Origin: Methylococcales bacterium | GTDB taxonomy: Bacteria; Pseudomonadota; Gammaproteobacteria; Methylococcales; Methylomonadaceae | DNA: 55,749 bases | Assembly (NCBI GenBank): GCA_003584865.1 | Contig: QVQE01000147.1 | Coordinates: forward strand, 1-55,749 | Reading direction: 5' to 3' | In this document: one piece after another, positions 3,836 to 51,588 of the stretch | Layout of the letters: each line of letters opens with the position of its first letter | Position numbering within the stretch: position 1 is the first letter of the stretch | The notes under the pieces: generated by a model | Database searches by the model: none | Told to the model about the DNA's origin: nothing | Seen by the model: only the letters and a program-made list of their open reading frames with translations | Translations under genes and position numbers: made by a program

Positions 3836-4921
3836 CTAAACAACCCGTATTCTTTGAGATCTTGCCCCCCAATTCCCGGACTCTGGTCTAAATACACCGG
3901 CACAGGCAGTACCACAAAAACGACAACACCCTTTATCATCCAGATTCCATTCAGACAATTGATACCAGTCCCGACCTATCAACAAGTTATGGCAGTGATG
4001 GCAATAAGTACTGTCTGCGGCTTTATTATGAGCATTACCAATATAAGCGTGATGTACACCATTTTTTAAGGCAATTTGTCTGGCCATTAATAATGATTCA
4101 ATGGGAGTACGCGGCTTATCTCGCATCTTCCAGTCGGGATGAAAAGCGGAAAAATGCATCGGCACATCAGGCCCCAGATTCTCGACCACCCATTGGGTCA
4201 ATGCTTCAAGTTCAGTTGCTGAGTCATTCTCACCGAGAATAAGGAGTGTTGTTAATTCTAGCCAGGTTGCTGTTTCATGTTTGATATATTTCAGGGTTTC
4301 CAAGACAGCTTCAAGATGTGAGCCAGTAATTTGATGATAAAACCGTTCAGTAAAGGCTTTTAAATCAATATTAGCGGCATCCATCCATTGATAAAACTCA
4401 GCTCTGGGTTCTGCACAGACATAACCCGCCGAAACCGCGACAGATTTAATACCCAAACTTCTACAGGCTTGTGCGGTATCAATGGCATATTCATGAAAAA
4501 TGACCGGATCATTGTAAGTATAGGCAACGCTATCACAGCCATATTGCTGTGCGGCTAGGGCAATAGCCTCAGGCGAAGCCTTGCTCATTAAGGTATCCAT
4601 TTCTCGTGATTTACTGATATCCCAGTTCTGACAAAACTTACAGGCCAGATTACAACCCGCCGTTCCAAAGGAGAGTACCGGTGTACCGGGTAAAAAATGG
4701 TTCAGGGGCTTTTTTTCAATCGGATCAATCGCAAATCCGCTGGAACGACCATAACTCGTCATAACTACTTCATTATCCAGATTTTGTCTGACAAAGCACA
4801 AGCCGCGCTGATCTTTATGAAGCGTACAAAAGCGTGGACAGAGATCACACTGAACACGACCCTCCCCTAAGTCATGCCAGTAGCGGGTTTTAACCGTATC
4901 ATGGGTAATAAAAGTAGTCAT
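3836..4921 (-). CDS. amrS: AmmeMemoRadiSam system radical SAM enzyme
   Basis: GTAGCNLACKFCQNWDIS radical SAM CxxxCxxC motif, N-terminal CDLCPRFCTLHKDQRGLCFVRQN, C-terminal CHHCHNLL...CRFCGT. Adjacent to AmrB and AmrA homologues. Confidence 0.9.
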   Translation of the reverse strand: MTTFITHDTVKTRYWHDLGEGRVQCDLCPRFCTLHKDQRGLCFVRQNLDNEVVMTSYGRSSGFAIDPIEKKPLNHFLPGTPVLSFGTAGCNLACKFCQNWDISKSREMDTLMSKASPEAIALAAQQYGCDSVAYTYNDPVIFHEYAIDTAQACRSLGIKSVAVSAGYVCAEPRAEFYQWMDAANIDLKAFTERFYHQITGSHLEAVLETLKYIKHETATWLELTTLLILGENDSATELEALTQWVVENLGPDVPMHFSAFHPDWKMRDKPRTPIESLLMARQIALKNGVHHAYIGNAHNKAADSTYCHHCHNLLIGRDWYQLSEWNLDDKGCCRFCGTACAGVFRPESGNWGARSQRIRVV

Positions 4922-14382: not shown

Positions 14383-17235
14383 ATGCCCGCTCAGATAAAC
14401 CCCAAAAAACCGGCAACCGGTTTTCCCATCGTTGGAATTGGCGCTTCGGCAGGTGGCTTAGAAGCACTACAGCAATTTTTTCGGAACTTCCCGGTTGATA
14501 GTGGCTTATCGTTTGTGGTGGTCTCGCATCTTGACCCTACACATCCCTCAATGCTGGCTGAAATCTTGCAGCGTGCTACGATAATGCCGGTTGTGGAAGC
14601 CGTCGATGAGCTAAAAATCGCACCTAACCACGTTTATATCATACCGCCTAACCGAGTTATGATTATTTCTCGGGGTTGTTTACAACTCTCAATGCCTGAA
14701 GAGCCGCAGGGATTGCGCATGCCGATAGACAGTTTTTTGCGTTCATTGGCTGATGACCAACAAAACTTGGCGGTCGGCATTATCCTGTCCGGCACTGGCA
14801 CCGACGGAGTACTTGGATTACAGGCTATCCAGGGTGTTGGCGGTATTACCGTTGCTCAGGAACCAACTGATGCCAAGTTTGACGGCATGCCCACTCATGC
14901 TATTCAAGCAGGCTACGTCACCCATATTCTGCCTGTTGAGAAAATGTCAGCATTGCTAAGCCCTTTTGCCCGTACTTTAATTGCTCCTGTTAAACCACAG
15001 CCTGTGTCTAAGGTAATAAGCGGTATAAATGGCGTACTAAACCAGTTGCTTACGGTTACCGGTAACGACTTCTCACGCTACAAAAAAAGCACCATTGGGC
15101 GTCGTATTGAGCGTCGAATGGTACAGCACAATATAGAAAACATTGAACTCTATACCCGTTATCTTAAGGAAAATACCTCCGAGGCGCACTTACTCTTTAA
15201 GGAGCTACTCATCAATGTGACCAATTTTTTTCGTGATCCCGAGGCCTTTGAGGTGCTGGAGAAAAATATCCTGCCCTCACTGTGCAATGATAAACCCGAT
15301 GACTATGTGTTCAGAGTCTGGGTGGCCGGTTGCGCTACTGGAGAAGAAGCCTATTCCATTGCGATTTTATTGAGCGAGCTGCTTGAGGTGACTCATCAGG
15401 TCTTCAAGATTCAGATTTACAGTACCGACCTGGATGATGACGTCATCAATATTGCCCGTGCCGGTATTTATCCCCTCACGATCACTCAGTATGTTAATCC
15501 AGAACGATTACGGCGCTTTTTTATAAAAGAGGAAACCGGCTATCGCGTCAAGAAACAACTTCGCGAAATGGTGATATTCGCCATTCAGAATGTTCTTAAA
15601 GACCCTCCTTTTACTAAACTGGATTTGATTAGCTGCCGTAACTTAATGATTTATCTGGAACCAGAAGCACAGAACCAATTGATTCCCGCTTTTCACTACG
15701 CGCTTAAACCGGGGGGAATACTCTTCCTGTCACCCTCGGAGGGTATCTGTAATCATACCGATTTGTTTGTAGCGCTCAACCGTCAATGGAAATTTTATCG
15801 GGCTAAACATGACTTTGTTAGGTCTGGCACTCTGTTGACTAACCCAACAGGCAGAGCCTTAGTACACACATCTAAACCGCCTGCGGTGGTTAAAACCCAA
15901 TCAGTCAGCTATGCCGAATTGGCTCACCAGATGCTGCTACAATGCTTTGCGCCTGCGGCCATTATTACTGACACCCTGGGCAATATCCTTTATCTGCATG
16001 GCGATACCGAAAAATACCTCCGCCATGTGACAGGTCTGGCCAGCCTCAATGCCCTCGATATGGCCTGTGAGGGTTTGTATTTGCATGCCGCTATTCGCTC
16101 AGCTGCCAGTAAAGGCAAACCGACACTCAACCGTGAAATGCAAGTTAAAACTAACACGGGAATCACTACCGTGAGTGTTAGTGTTCGCCCCTTATCCGAC
16201 CCGGACGGTGGTCAATGCCTGCTCATTAGCTTTCAGGATATCGCAAACCCAGCGACTGACCCCCTGTTAAAACGGATTACCAAACCCTATCAACTAGAGC
16301 GTATAGAAGAATTGGAGCACGATTTGGCATATCTGACCGAGGGCTATCAGTCCAGTGTCGATGAACTTAAATCCACTAATGAAGAAATGCAATCAACCAA
16401 TGAGGAAATTCAATCGACTAACGAAGAACTGGAAACCTCCAAGGAAGAAATGCAATCCGTTAATGAAGAACTCATGACGGTCAACTCCGAACTACAGGCT
16501 AAAATTGAACAACTGATTGGCCTACAGAACGACATGAAAAATCTGCTGGATAATATCAAGGTCGGAATTATTATTCTCGATCAACATCTGTTGATTCGTA
16601 GCTTCACGCCTGAGGCAAAACACATCTATCCCCTGGTGACTACTGATGTCGGTAGACCCCTAAGTGACTTTAAATCAAGTGTAGCGTCAATTGACCTGCT
16701 GGCAGCCGCCCAGACCGTGTTTGATTCTTTAACGCCTTTTGAGCGTGAGCTAAAACTAAATAACAATATCTGGATGTCGGTGCGGATTCAACCTTACCGT
16801 ACACTGGAAAACAGGATTGATGGCGTTGTACTGACGTTTACCGATATCAGTGCCAGTGTTAAAGGCGTAGCGACGCAAGCCGCGCTTAATTTAGCCGATG
16901 GTATTGTCAATTCTATACTTGAACCCATTCTGGTTCTTGATGAGGCGCTAAAGGTAGTTTTTGCCAACCAGACTTTTTACCAGTATTTTAAAGTCAGGCC
17001 GGAGGAAACTTTAGGAAAACCTGTTTATGAGTTTGGCAACGGCGAATGGAATCTTCCAGAACTGCGTGAACTGTTCGGCGAAGTGGTCTCAAAAGGTCTA
17101 CCCTTTAACGATTTTTTAGTGGCTCAACCGGTTGCTCGGCAGGAGTCTCCCATGCTGCTAATGAATGCACGTCCGTTAATCAACAACGACAGCCCATTGC
17201 AACTGATATTATTATCAATAAAGCTTAATACATGA
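14383..17235 (+). CDS. CheB methylesterase - CheR methyltransferase - PAS fusion protein
   Basis: N-terminus PIVGIGASAGGLEALQQFFRNFP (CheB), VWVAGCATGEEAYSIAILL (CheR SAM motif), coiled coil STNEEMQSTNEEIQSTNEELETSKEEMQSVNEEL, C-terminal PAS domains. Confidence 0.95.
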   Translation: MPAQINPKKPATGFPIVGIGASAGGLEALQQFFRNFPVDSGLSFVVVSHLDPTHPSMLAEILQRATIMPVVEAVDELKIAPNHVYIIPPNRVMIISRGCLQLSMPEEPQGLRMPIDSFLRSLADDQQNLAVGIILSGTGTDGVLGLQAIQGVGGITVAQEPTDAKFDGMPTHAIQAGYVTHILPVEKMSALLSPFARTLIAPVKPQPVSKVISGINGVLNQLLTVTGNDFSRYKKSTIGRRIERRMVQHNIENIELYTRYLKENTSEAHLLFKELLINVTNFFRDPEAFEVLEKNILPSLCNDKPDDYVFRVWVAGCATGEEAYSIAILLSELLEVTHQVFKIQIYSTDLDDDVINIARAGIYPLTITQYVNPERLRRFFIKEETGYRVKKQLREMVIFAIQNVLKDPPFTKLDLISCRNLMIYLEPEAQNQLIPAFHYALKPGGILFLSPSEGICNHTDLFVALNRQWKFYRAKHDFVRSGTLLTNPTGRALVHTSKPPAVVKTQSVSYAELAHQMLLQCFAPAAIITDTLGNILYLHGDTEKYLRHVTGLASLNALDMACEGLYLHAAIRSAASKGKPTLNREMQVKTNTGITTVSVSVRPLSDPDGGQCLLISFQDIANPATDPLLKRITKPYQLERIEELEHDLAYLTEGYQSSVDELKSTNEEMQSTNEEIQSTNEELETSKEEMQSVNEELMTVNSELQAKIEQLIGLQNDMKNLLDNIKVGIIILDQHLLIRSFTPEAKHIYPLVTTDVGRPLSDFKSSVASIDLLAAAQTVFDSLTPFERELKLNNNIWMSVRIQPYRTLENRIDGVVLTFTDISASVKGVATQAALNLADGIVNSILEPILVLDEALKVVFANQTFYQYFKVRPEETLGKPVYEFGNGEWNLPELRELFGEVVSKGLPFNDFLVAQPVARQESPMLLMNARPLINNDSPLQLILLSIKLNT

Positions 17236-41023: not shown

Positions 41024-42205
41024 TTATTTTTTGCTATTAACGATAGAGAGAAGGTGATCAAGTCTCCTTTGAACAGTAGCTTCAAAATCATGATTGCGAG
41101 CAAAAACTGCACTGTTTTTTGATTTTTTGATCAGCTCGTCTCTATTACTATTCAAATCAGCTACAATTTTACAGATTCCATCAAGATCATTTAATTCAGC
41201 TCCCCACCCAACATCGAAAATCTCCAATAGACCGGAAAATGCTCTGTTTTTGTACCCGACTATCGGTACACCACAGGACAATGTTTCTAAATAGGTACAA
41301 GAGGGATCGCTTTGCCTATGTAAGCACACAAAAAGATCGACTGTCTGTTTAAGCTCAGGAATAAGTATTTTATAAAAATCAACTGATCCTAGCATAGAAA
41401 TATCATTTTCAAGATGATGTTTAGAAATGAACTTTTTCATTTCTGTTTCTAATTCGCCTGTGCCGTATATTTTTAAATGGAAGGGAATATTGATTTGTTT
41501 TAATTTTAAGGCAAATTTAACAAGATGATCAGCGCCCTTTATCCGGATCAACCGCCCTGAAAATGCAATACGCAGTGGCTTATATTCAGATAAGTAATTA
41601 ACTCTTTGTTCTAATTCATTATCTTTTATTATCTGGTTTTCAAAAACGCGGGTATCGAAGAATAATAAATTATTTTTTACTTCACTGTATTCACTATGAG
41701 CAGGTACGCCGTTTGATTGCAGACCGTCGCAAAGTTTAAAAGCTGCCACTCTTTTTCTTTCTTTTTCCCATATATAGAAAAACCTACGTATTTTTACGAT
41801 TGGGTTCGAGGTACTTAATGCAGCGATTTGATATCGAGTCTCGGGTATATATTCAATGATATAGACACATTTTATGTTTTCTTTTTTACATAACTTGCTC
41901 AGATGAAGTTGATTGTCAGAGTCGCCAGATGCAAGCACAATAGAAACGCCCTGTAGGTGAGTTGCACTTATTAATTCCTTTTCTATTAAAGTGATACACT
42001 TAAACGGTAACTCATTGTAACTTAAAGCTTTAACACCAAATTCAGGAAGTGGTTCGGTGCTTAATGAGATAATGCAAGACACATCCCCAGGCCATTTTTC
42101 AGTATACAACAGCATCCCATTATAAAATTTGAGATCAAATATTAATAAGTTATCCGATTTCCATACAGGTACAGAAGGTGTAATTGCTAAATGAAATGGT
42201 CGCAT
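41024..42205 (-). CDS. Glycosyltransferase family 4-like
   Basis: LRIAFSGRLIRIKGADHLVKFALKLKQINIPFHLKIYGTGELETEMKKFI...VDLFVCLHRQSDPSCTYLETLSCGVPIVGYKNRAFSGLLE. Confidence 0.85.
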   Translation of the reverse strand: MRPFHLAITPSVPVWKSDNLLIFDLKFYNGMLLYTEKWPGDVSCIISLSTEPLPEFGVKALSYNELPFKCITLIEKELISATHLQGVSIVLASGDSDNQLHLSKLCKKENIKCVYIIEYIPETRYQIAALSTSNPIVKIRRFFYIWEKERKRVAAFKLCDGLQSNGVPAHSEYSEVKNNLLFFDTRVFENQIIKDNELEQRVNYLSEYKPLRIAFSGRLIRIKGADHLVKFALKLKQINIPFHLKIYGTGELETEMKKFISKHHLENDISMLGSVDFYKILIPELKQTVDLFVCLHRQSDPSCTYLETLSCGVPIVGYKNRAFSGLLEIFDVGWGAELNDLDGICKIVADLNSNRDELIKKSKNSAVFARNHDFEATVQRRLDHLLSIVNSKK

Positions 42206-42237
42206 AAGGTGTAATTGCTAAATGAAATGGTCGCATA
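42176..42237. repeat. Perfect 31-bp tandem duplication at the start codon of the GT4-like gene
   Basis: aggtgtaattgctaaatgaaatggtcgcata at 42176-42206 is repeated exactly at 42207-42237. Confidence 0.97.
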
Positions 42238-46996: not shown

Positions 46997-48166
46997 TTAT
47001 TTAATTTTTTTTATTTTATTTAAAACATCTGCATGAAACGCTCGCGCTATTTGCATCGTTACTTCAGGAGTGAAATGCCCATCACTCACAAAATTTCTGG
47101 GATTCGTATTTGACGCAATGGTGTGCGTACTTAAGTAAGGAATATCCAATTGTTTAAGTTGAGACTCAAATGCCAAGGCAAGATGGTTCTTATATCCCTT
47201 ATCCTGAATGAGCAAAACATAAGGAATTTGACCTTTTGCCCTTACATCAGCAGCAAAGTCAGCAACAAGTGTATTCGCAATATCCAAAATGCCATCTGTA
47301 TTTATAAATCCATTTGCATTCCAGTATCTTGCCGTAACATCATGCACATGCTTTTGTCCAATACTACGACGAATCATTCTTGCCAAGGCAGAATAATCAA
47401 AAATATCTTTTTCAAATATCCAGCTATTATAAGTTGGAGATTTACTTCTAAGCATTTTGATATATACCTGCCACAATGAAGGATTGTCATAAAATGCAGT
47501 ACGTAATTCTTCTATAGAATGGATGATAGGATCTTCCTCTGAAATATGACCTTCTTTTAAGGTGTAGATCGGATAGGTATAAGGTGCTGCACCTTCAAAA
47601 TTGATAGTGGCCGTTGTTGGGGCTGTCATGTAAATTAGCGAAGAGGCTAAAATGCCTAGCACGACTACATCTGCCTGCTGATTCTTGGCATCTGCTTTGT
47701 AATAAGCATAAGAATGGGAAACCGTCGCTGCCGGCCCAGCTTTTAAGCGAAGCTCAAAACGAGGATCAACAACCTTTAGCGCCTCACAAATTTGATTGGT
47801 AAATGATTGTCCATAGGCAGCAATAAGAACACGATCATGACTAGATGCCATTTTAGGTTGATCATCCACTTCGTTTTCTAGTATCCAACCCGCATTGGCT
47901 ACCATGGAGGTAGATTCTTTATCTCTGCCCACCATATACCTGATTTTCCCTTCAGCCGAACGACCATAATCAAAAAAACTTTGAAGCTTGCTGGGTTGAA
48001 TCAGTGGTGATTTTGGCATTGCGAAAAAAATATTGAGCGAAATATCGATCAATATCAGCCAAACTAATGCCCATAGACTAGCGACAAAAACTCGTTGTCC
48101 AGTCAACATCGAAGTCGGGATATTATCAGACTCAGAATTGGAAATAGATGAATTGCTGACTGTCAT
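46997..48166 (-). CDS. SGNH/AlgX-like acetylation-associated protein
   Basis: Single N-terminal TM, VLIAAYGQSFTNQICEAL, C-terminal YLSTHTIASNTNPRNFVSDGHFTPEVTMQIARAF; overlaps the upstream MBOAT gene. Confidence 0.65.
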   Translation of the reverse strand: MTVSNSSISNSESDNIPTSMLTGQRVFVASLWALVWLILIDISLNIFFAMPKSPLIQPSKLQSFFDYGRSAEGKIRYMVGRDKESTSMVANAGWILENEVDDQPKMASSHDRVLIAAYGQSFTNQICEALKVVDPRFELRLKAGPAATVSHSYAYYKADAKNQQADVVVLGILASSLIYMTAPTTATINFEGAAPYTYPIYTLKEGHISEEDPIIHSIEELRTAFYDNPSLWQVYIKMLRSKSPTYNSWIFEKDIFDYSALARMIRRSIGQKHVHDVTARYWNANGFINTDGILDIANTLVADFAADVRAKGQIPYVLLIQDKGYKNHLALAFESQLKQLDIPYLSTHTIASNTNPRNFVSDGHFTPEVTMQIARAFHADVLNKIKKIK

Positions 48167-49778
48167 TAGATAACCCCATTATAAAAGCAAATATTAGGAG
48201 AGCATATACGCCACCATGAATAACCGCTGGATAATATGTATAAAAATGTATATTTTGGCGTTTGAATTGAAATATCTCGACAAAAATTAAGATAAAAATA
48301 CCTAATAGAGAACTAAATGGCGGAATTTTCATATGTAATGACATATTGGAAAAATCACTTAATAAAATTTGAGTAAAGGAGCTGATTTGATCAAAAGATG
48401 TTGCTCTAAACAAAAGCCATCCATAACAGATAAACACAAAAAAGAACATCATCCTAGGCAAGCGCATTAATAATGTTCCACAAAACTCGGCTGGTTTGCG
48501 TCCAACAAATAATCTATGAATAATCAACATAGCACCTTGGTATCCACCCCAAAGTAAGAAATTCCAGGCAGCACCATGCCATAAACCACCCAGCACCATA
48601 GTTAGCATTAAATTTCTATAGACCTTAATTTCCGAGCCACGATTCCCGCCCAGGGGTATATATAAATAATCCCGGAGCCAGGATGACAAACTAATATGCC
48701 AGCGACGCCAGAACTCAGAAGGATTTAAAGAAAAATAAGGCTGATCAAAGTTTTTTAATAACTCAATACCAAACCAAAGAGATACACCACAGGCAATATC
48801 AGAGTAACCCGAAAAATCACAATAAATCTGTATTGCAAATGCCACCGTGGCGGTAACAATATCTAACCAACCGACATCACCACTGGCATTGTAAACTGAG
48901 AATACTGAACCCGCTAATCCATCAGCAATCGCCATTTTTTTTACCAGCCCAAGCAGGATAAGGTAAGCGCCTTGACAGATATTTTCAAAATTTATGCGCC
49001 GCTCCCCCAGTATCCGTGGAATCAAATGCGATGCCCGCTCTATTGGCCCTGCAACTAAAGGCGGAAAATAAGATACAAATAGCGCAAAATCCCTTAAACG
49101 ACTAACCGGTTGCATCTTACCCCAATAGACATCACAGACATAACTTAAGGTCTGAAATGTGTAAAAAGAAATACCAATCGGAAGGATGATATCCAAATGC
49201 ATGCTAGGAGCGTCAACACCTAAACTCTTTAAACAGCCTTCAGCCTCAGCAACAAAAAAATTATAATATTTAAAAACGCCTAACATGCCTAACTGACCCA
49301 TCAGACTGCACCGTAAAAAGAAAATACGCTTTGTTTTTTCTTCCATGTGCTTAAGCACATAAGGATAAGCTATATTAGCAACGGCAACACCTAAACCCGA
49401 AAGACCCAATACGTTAAGTCCAAGGGAAGTGGGCGTTAATAACTGCTGCCAATCAATATTAATATTATTTAAATACGCGCCCTGAAAAACGACCGCATGC
49501 CAATCGGGCACCAGAAAAAATAATGCAAATCCAAGTAGATGACATGTCGGTGCAAGCCGTTGAGCCAACGTCATTCGTCCATTTGCTATCATCAACCCGG
49601 TACAAAAATCGAGTACTGTAGATAATGACACAAGGTAAAGGAATCGTATGTCCCATACACCATAAAAAGTATAGCCGGCAATCAACAATACCCAATTTTG
49701 GTAACGTCTACCACATAAATAGTAAAAGAGCAGAACAATGGGTAAAAAAATAGCAAACGAAAGAGAATTAAAAATCAT
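48132..49778 (-). CDS. MBOAT family O-acyltransferase (AlgI-like)
   Basis: MIFNSLSFAIFLPIVLLFYYL...LPIGISFYTFQTLSYVCDVYWG...FALFVSYFPPLVAGPIERASHLIPRI...YCDFSGYSDIACGVSLWFGIELLKNFDQPYFSLNPSEFWRRWHISLSSWLRDYLYIPLGGNRG. Confidence 0.95.
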   Translation of the reverse strand: MIFNSLSFAIFLPIVLLFYYLCGRRYQNWVLLIAGYTFYGVWDIRFLYLVSLSTVLDFCTGLMIANGRMTLAQRLAPTCHLLGFALFFLVPDWHAVVFQGAYLNNINIDWQQLLTPTSLGLNVLGLSGLGVAVANIAYPYVLKHMEEKTKRIFFLRCSLMGQLGMLGVFKYYNFFVAEAEGCLKSLGVDAPSMHLDIILPIGISFYTFQTLSYVCDVYWGKMQPVSRLRDFALFVSYFPPLVAGPIERASHLIPRILGERRINFENICQGAYLILLGLVKKMAIADGLAGSVFSVYNASGDVGWLDIVTATVAFAIQIYCDFSGYSDIACGVSLWFGIELLKNFDQPYFSLNPSEFWRRWHISLSSWLRDYLYIPLGGNRGSEIKVYRNLMLTMVLGGLWHGAAWNFLLWGGYQGAMLIIHRLFVGRKPAEFCGTLLMRLPRMMFFFVFICYGWLLFRATSFDQISSFTQILLSDFSNMSLHMKIPPFSSLLGIFILIFVEIFQFKRQNIHFYTYYPAVIHGGVYALLIFAFIMGLSNDSQQFIYFQF

Positions 49779-50002
49779 TTAATCAACAAATTCTTTTGAG
49801 TGGCGAGTTTGTCTAGTTTATCTCTATAGAGTACAGATAACAAGATACTGAAGAAAACCCAATTATCTAAACTCGCAAAAGGCGTAGCTATACGAATAAA
49901 ACCTACGTCACCATTGGCAATGGGTACCAGTCGAGACACCAGAGTGAGTTTGCGGGCGACTTTATTCGCCTTGGCGGGATATTCATTATTTCATGCACAT
50001 TC

Positions 50003-50353
50003 CTTAAGCGATAGAAATCTCCCTTTTTCCTGTCGCTTATGCGCCTTAAGCGACAGGAACTTCCCCTTTTCCTATCGCTTATGTTCCTTAAGCGACAGGA
50101 ACTTCCCCTTTTCCTATCGCTTATGTTCCTTAAGCGACCGGAACCTCCCCTTTTCCTATCGCTTATGTTCCTTAAGCGATAGGAACCTCCCCTTTTCCTA
50201 TCGCTTATGTTCCTTAAGCGATAGGAACCTCCCCTTTTCCTATCGCTTATGTTCCTTAAGCGATAGGAACCTCCCCTTTTCCTATCGCTTATGTTCCTTA
50301 AGCGATAGGAATCTCCCTTTTTCCTATCGCTTATGTTCCTTAAGCAACAGGTG
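50003..50353. repeat. 42-bp-period tandem repeat array (8 full units plus a degenerate partial) forming serial hairpins
   Basis: Units start at 50003, 50045, 50087, 50129, 50171, 50213, 50255 and 50297; consensus cttaagcgataggaacctccccttttcctatcgcttatgttc. Each junction forms cctatcgctta-tgttcct-taagcgatagg. Confidence 0.97.
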
Positions 50354-50481
50354 TTAATTCTCTTCCTGTTGGATTGAAATACAAGCTGAAATGACATCAA
50401 AAAATATAAATATAATTTACTTACTTTATATCAGAATACAGGTATGTGGTAATTCAATTCAGTTGTAACCCAAGCTAAACC

Positions 50482-51588
50482 TCAGTCTCGACTTATTATG
50501 CATTTTATAATTCTAACCATTGGCTTTCTAAGCTGATTGCCATAATACGTGACCAAAGCCGATACCATCAATGGAATTAAAAACATCATCATATTCGATT
50601 GAAAAGTATGCGATATTTTATAATAATCAGACAGTGCTGCAATACAGTGAATAATTGGGTAATGCACTGCGTAAATTGCAAAGGTTCCCAATGCAAGAAC
50701 TCTATTCAGTCTATATAGCATGTTAGGCATACGATCATCACTAATCCGTTTAAAAATATTATAAGTCGCTAAAAAATTTAAAATAATCAATAAACTCAAA
50801 AAATAATAATCTAAAAAAAGACCAGAATGACCCAGGCTACTTATAAATGTATTTTGTTTTTTAAATACAAGATCAGTGAAATATGACGACATCAAACCTT
50901 CACCACAATACGATTTATAGGTGATGTATAACAGTACTGAGAGTACAAATAATATTATCGATGTGATGAGTGAGAGCTGTGTTTTGATTACATAGTTATA
51001 TAGATAGTATCCACTGAGCCAAATTGGAAAGAGAATTAGAATTTTAGGACCCGCGATTAAGCATAAAAGCATAAACAACAGCTTTCGGTGTTTAACATTA
51101 AATCCAATCGCTACGAAAATGGCATAAAAAAACGCCTCATAACCTAAAGACCAAAAGGGACCATTTGAAAAAGCACCCACATCAAAAAACCACAACTGAT
51201 TTAGCAGTAATAAATTAACGCCGAGTCGTGGAATAAAGTGAGAATCATTAAACCACCAAGCTCCTTGATAATAATCAGGATTTATAGCCTGACCCAATTG
51301 ATCACACATTAATGTAATTAATAAAGCTGGCCAAGCGATAGATAATAATCTGGAAATTCTAGCCGAAACATATTCCGTCAACGCTGATTCACGCCTTTTG
51401 ACAACATCAGAAATAATAAAACCAGATAAAACGAAAAAAACCATTACGGCATCTGGACCAAGCCCAGGTAAATGAGTAGCACCAAAAATAGAACCAACCA
51501 AATATTCGTAATTTAAATGCCCCACAAAAACAATTAATGCAGCAAATAGTCTAACGAAATCAAGATAAGCGGAGTTAAATTTATTCAT
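50482..51588 (-). CDS. Acyltransferase family 3 (OafA-like)
   Basis: NSAYLDFVRLFAALIVFVGHLNYEYL...GPDAVMVFFVLSGFIISDVVKRRE...ARISRLLSIAWPALLIT. Confidence 0.92.
   Translation of the reverse strand: MNKFNSAYLDFVRLFAALIVFVGHLNYEYLVGSIFGATHLPGLGPDAVMVFFVLSGFIISDVVKRRESALTEYVSARISRLLSIAWPALLITLMCDQLGQAINPDYYQGAWWFNDSHFIPRLGVNLLLLNQLWFFDVGAFSNGPFWSLGYEAFFYAIFVAIGFNVKHRKLLFMLLCLIAGPKILILFPIWLSGYYLYNYVIKTQLSLITSIILFVLSVLLYITYKSYCGEGLMSSYFTDLVFKKQNTFISSLGHSGLFLDYYFLSLLIILNFLATYNIFKRISDDRMPNMLYRLNRVLALGTFAIYAVHYPIIHCIAALSDYYKISHTFQSNMMMFLIPLMVSALVTYYGNQLRKPMVRIIKCIISRD

Follow-up and report, generated by a model that had tools for sequence, protein, structure and literature searches.

Tandem arrays with a pitch of about two helical turns upstream of FN3-domain genes in Methylococcaceae: a candidate system of helically phased protein-binding sites

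Tandem repeat arrays linked to a family of genes with a fibronectin-III (FN3) domain have a single property in common, a pitch of 20–22 bp (approximately two helical turns) or a multiple of it. Read most simply, the shared pitch would place binding motifs in a row along one helical face, and we give about an even chance to the prediction, made from this pitch, that such an array is a helically phased set of sites through which a bound protein controls the downstream gene, in a system that has not been described. One member of the set is a 42-bp array in the window (the whole analysed stretch of 55,749 nucleotides), which belongs to a 2.5-Mb metagenome-assembled genome (MAG) of 197 contigs with sister MAGs labelled as uncultured Methylococcaceae.

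The window array and its 42-bp superfamily

TRF found one strong intergenic array in the window, at 50000..50345 on the + strand, with a period of 42, 8.2 head-to-tail copies, 94% matches and no indels, which agrees with the eight units plus a partial one given in a preliminary description. The identity of units 5–7 and the divergence of the outer units, also noted there, were borne out by unit comparison, and these three identical units form the homogenised core of the array (50172..50297, +). The 11-bp stem, 7-nt loop and 13-nt spacer of the same description are an equivalent account of the layout, but the central arms are really perfect 13-mers, TAAGCGATAGGAA and its reverse complement, and not 11-mers. 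The 13-nt arms alternate strictly in orientation with gaps of 9 nt (CCTCCCCTT) and 7 nt (TGTTCCT), giving a class A unit of 13+9+13+7 = 42. The first forward arm, TAAGCGATAGAAA, lies at 50004..50016 (+) and the last, degenerate one, TAAGCAACAGGTG, at 50340..50352 (+); a terminus of the form TTAAGC..GGTGTTAA is common to the window array and the arsR-locus arrays of two related genomes (G012 and G000). An assembly artefact, raised earlier as a possible source of the repeat, is unlikely because the comparison of copy number among relatives, proposed at the same time, revealed orthologous arrays of differing copy number in two other MAGs (CAIMEB01/VK_bin-0278 and CAIOMN01/Ki2-D4_bin-0825). Two further repeats of the window are a second 42-bp signal (approximately 16347–16472) within a 950-aa open frame and a perfect 31-bp tandem duplication in two copies (42175–42237) that overlaps the start of the gene at 41024–42205.

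The class A covariance model retrieved diverged 42-bp arrays of two more classes, B and C; the class B model widened this set and recovered class A in register, and class C was found in the same loci. The three diverged classes align by eye in register over the full unit and constitute one superfamily, whose range is limited to four sister MAG species of Methylococcaceae. Class B arrays keep a spacing of exactly 42 bp without indels, though their units have diverged. Class A arrays occur in three of the species, at the window locus and at a locus beside an arsR gene, and each genome has these two array loci plus solo copies. None was found in the remaining congeners, and the exact class A pattern was found neither in the rest of GTDB nor in viral contigs. 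Searches of viral, GTDB, phage and plasmid sequences for the repeat or the FN3 protein returned only two sister MAGs and single chance matches in unrelated organisms.

The second class A locus (L030 11407–11755, L033 1–340 and L034 4613–4669) adjoins an arsR gene that is intact in G033 and a fragment in G012:C26 and G000:C128. In G012 and G000, an rpn-like (PD-(D/E)XK) gene precedes the array, which follows directly on its stop codon. The array has 1.3 units in G000 vs. approximately eight in the sisters, and in G000 an FN3-gene fragment also borders it. The class B1 arrays (L123, L125, L163 and L170) have one flank pair in common, with a cas2-like gene after the array in L123 and L125 and a truncated rpn-like gene before it in L123. 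The rpn gene was considered as a natural partner and rejected, being found beside the arsR-locus and B1 arrays only.

The preliminary description treated the hairpin as the key feature of the array, yet the hairpin is not what is conserved. The window array folds far beyond its shuffles (z of −20.9 and −15.4) because any array of perfect inverted arms gives such values. Arm variants at arm positions 8–9 (TA, CC, CA, TC and AT) are uncompensated, and pairing and covariation were no better than in shuffles, pairing in either phase. Inverted arms are also not general in the wider family, being significant in five of 37 related arrays upstream of FN3 genes (p≤0.05), and the hairpin or ncRNA reading is weak. 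The array matches no family in an Rfam scan (best score of 19.7 bits vs. a gathering score of 71.4), and the earlier failure to assign it to a described repeat family holds up. It is also not CRISPR, as had been stated, since a CRISPR array requires unique spacers; there are none, and the inter-arm gaps are common to the units. A protein-coding repeat was rejected as well, as 16 of 41 array periods are not multiples of 3 (20, 40, 41 and 61 occur). In class A, the best synonymous frame contains stops and no coding signal was found, and the coding test for class B was weak and inconsistent.

A shared pitch upstream of FN3-domain genes

Many class B and C arrays are followed downstream, in one orientation, by a gene of approximately 199 aa with a C-terminal FN3 domain, the only domain recognised in its product; the N-terminal half belongs to no recognisable family. 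The gene was found in 25 of 35 congeners; each of the four species with arrays has 19–24 matches, and the array clade has approximately 20 paralogs per genome. A phylum-wide search of 399 genomes found the protein in the window's own genome only and therefore indicates that it is rare and patchy. A small open frame of 21 aa is also present upstream of the FN3 gene in the array clade (L088 at approximately 3880–3950, L165 and L167), with the sequence MNNAKISFELAKIILSTQSLA in L088.

For the survey of pitch, FN3 homologs were picked by protein similarity and not by repeats. Genus-wide, strong tandem arrays were found in 41 of 88 upstream regions of FN3 paralogs, and many MAG contigs stop shortly upstream of FN3 genes, so arrays may be under-counted. 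The 41 arrays have periods of 20 (2), 21 (3), 40 (6), 41 (7), 42 (20), 60, 61 and 63 and no others, those of period 60/61 having only 2–2.5 copies. The paralogs are not mutually independent, a concern lessened by the 30 unrelated sequence clusters into which the array units fall. The 118 control windows contained four known arrays and one more, in a coding coiled-coil. The array-bearing upstream span extends from approximately −750 to −57 of the start codon, with a median array at −473 to −251 and one outlier reaching −883. A scan of 734 kb of G030 placed five of 14 arrays within the 11 kb (1.5%) upstream of 11 FN3 genes (binomial p of approximately 1e-6).

The same pitch was found in paralogs that lack a strong array. 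Forty such paralogs have peaks at 21, 42, 63 and 84 bp (z of 7.5, 6.3, 5.3 and 4.3, respectively), and the best lag is near a multiple of 20.5 in 60% of them vs. 17% of controls; by eye, a short core recurs. Distant FN3 homologs in another family of the order have 21–22/44-bp arrays with a recurring short core and variable surroundings. In one case (L315 from 5850, G030:C14:81850–82027), a period-60 array lies approximately 290 bp downstream of the FN3 gene and not upstream.

The arrays might instead be satellites without function that build up by slippage, unequal crossing-over and gene conversion where the intergenic DNA around FN3 genes is permissive, and they would then carry the pitch of their generating enzyme. 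The difference in copy number between species, the homogenised central units and the existence of orphan arrays all fit this account; it is nevertheless unlikely, as the periods are multiples of 20–21 only across 30 unrelated clusters, the pitch is kept in degenerate arrays after unit identity is lost and the arrays are strongly enriched upstream of one gene family.

Proposed phased binding sites and comparison with known systems

The suggestion of a protein-binding array in the preliminary description stands as a candidate reading. Under the proposed mechanism, the array would act at the DNA level through short binding motifs (approximately 7–12 bp) that recur every two helical turns on the same side of the helix. 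Each paralog family would have its own protein, either a regulator or the FN3 protein, whose co-operative binding to the array would set transcription of the downstream gene. The units would expand and homogenise through unequal crossing-over and gene conversion, and only the expansion steps that keep helical phase would survive. Several points count against a binding array: approximately half of the paralogs have degenerate periodicity only, some two-turn arrays have no FN3 gene close by, the window array is oriented away from the MBOAT gene, and a fixed pitch might equally come from slippage or conversion that favours one length.

More tentatively, and with the balance against it, we suggest an undescribed system in which each FN3 paralog has a private upstream motif array, the motif diverging while the pitch stays locked near two turns, and in which the protein or a cognate factor recognises its own array only. 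Such private pairing, if true, would provide orthogonal protein–DNA addressing pairs inside one genome, amounting to approximately 20 orthogonal DNA-recognition modules per methanotroph cell were every paralog matched to an array of its own, and thus a natural set in which to study and reuse protein–DNA specificity.

Iteron arrays of plasmid replicons are direct repeats of approximately 20–22 bp in helical phase, located upstream of a protein gene and with a sequence private to each system. The FN3-linked arrays resemble them as phased repeats of approximately 20–22 bp upstream of a gene, but the FN3 gene is not a recognisable Rep initiator, the system has approximately 20 chromosomal copies per genome and the unit is often 40–42 bp, composed of two half-units that are inverted in classes A and B. 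Phased operator, upstream activating and centromere-like arrays are composed of short motifs repeated on one helix face upstream of a gene; the present family differs from them in having many unrelated sequences with one pitch. The open-licence literature subset that was searched yielded no description of a paralog family whose arrays have many unrelated sequences but one pitch. A repeat class defined by spacing and not by sequence escapes ordinary repeat and RNA-family searches.

The alternating orientation and regular spacing of the arms in classes A and B recall BIMEs, REPs and REPINs, short extragenic elements that show these two features (PMC2817692). A BIME/REP-like or MITE-like selfish repeat, whose alternating short arms undergo tandem amplification and spread among intergenic sites, would also fit the several dispersed loci with ends in common. 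This origin is quite improbable, as the arrays are of low copy (two array loci and solo copies per genome for class A) and fall far short of the >100 copies per genome typical of REPs. They are also tied to one gene family in a single orientation, and the arms differ between arrays, which are unrelated in sequence and have pitch alone in common.

TIGR arrays have two alternating repeats of 8–12 nt with spacers of approximately 9 nt, vary between loci and flank a protein gene (PMC12045711), and the present arrays resemble them in two alternating short repeats with gaps of approximately 9 nt (13/9/13/7 in class A), a locus-specific repeat sequence and an adjacent protein gene. A TIGR-like or other guide or small-RNA array, transcribed upstream of its protein gene, is very unlikely, however. 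The Nop domain (PF01798) is absent in all 35 congeners, with control genomes positive; the inter-repeat segments are not variable spacers (7% variable columns in strong arrays); the pitch is 20–22 vs. 18 in TIGR and the unit 40–44 vs. 36; and on the gene strand, terminators between the array and the FN3 gene are not in excess.

Neighbours of the window array and its orphan status

The array is flanked, as first described, by an MBOAT O-acyltransferase gene (48132..49778) and an acyltransferase-3 gene (50482..51588), both on the − strand, and the start codon of the former is approximately 225 bp from the array, which lies on its 5' side. The natural partners of the array are not these two genes for EPS acylation, as the array is a displaced copy that stems from an FN3-gene element. 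G017 retains the MBOAT gene and has the orthologous position without an array, and in G033, an array is joined to a truncated acyltransferase-3 gene, of which the first 39 codons are kept, with most of the MBOAT region missing. The left array flank is at 49893..49999, the G017 orthologue (C60) matching the window as far as 49892 and diverging thereafter. Beyond the array lies a 94-bp piece (50361..50453, +) of the sequence that precedes genes of the FN3 family; it is 85% identical to G033:C53 and corresponds to approximately −235 to −142 from the start codon. No FN3 gene or fragment of one was detectable in the window. As the upstream piece is present and its gene is gone, the window array is an orphan.

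Without its gene, the array would be either inert or co-opted by the MBOAT operon as an upstream element; its distance of approximately 225 bp from the MBOAT start codon, on the upstream side, makes such capture possible, and matched loci with and without the array are already present in related genomes.

The edge of the G033 array, with the truncated acyltransferase and the loss of MBOAT, and the arsR and FN3-gene fragments beside arrays in G000:C128 would suit a role of the arrays as recombination platforms, by which FN3 cassettes are shuffled or mobilised; the arms resemble recombinase half-sites. Such a role is distinctly unlikely, since deletions are promoted by any long direct repeat, no recombinase is linked to the arrays and the hairpin or half-site symmetry is missing from most of them.

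Two-turn arrays also occur without a nearby FN3 gene at the B1 loci beside rpn/cas2 and at G030:C46, in addition to the window. The G030:C46 array (L303 9175–9562) has the core GAGCACTCCGTTAA, and approximately 440 bp downstream of it is a large TPR/beta-barrel, polysaccharide-export-like gene; an export/EPS-type context is common to this array and that of the window.
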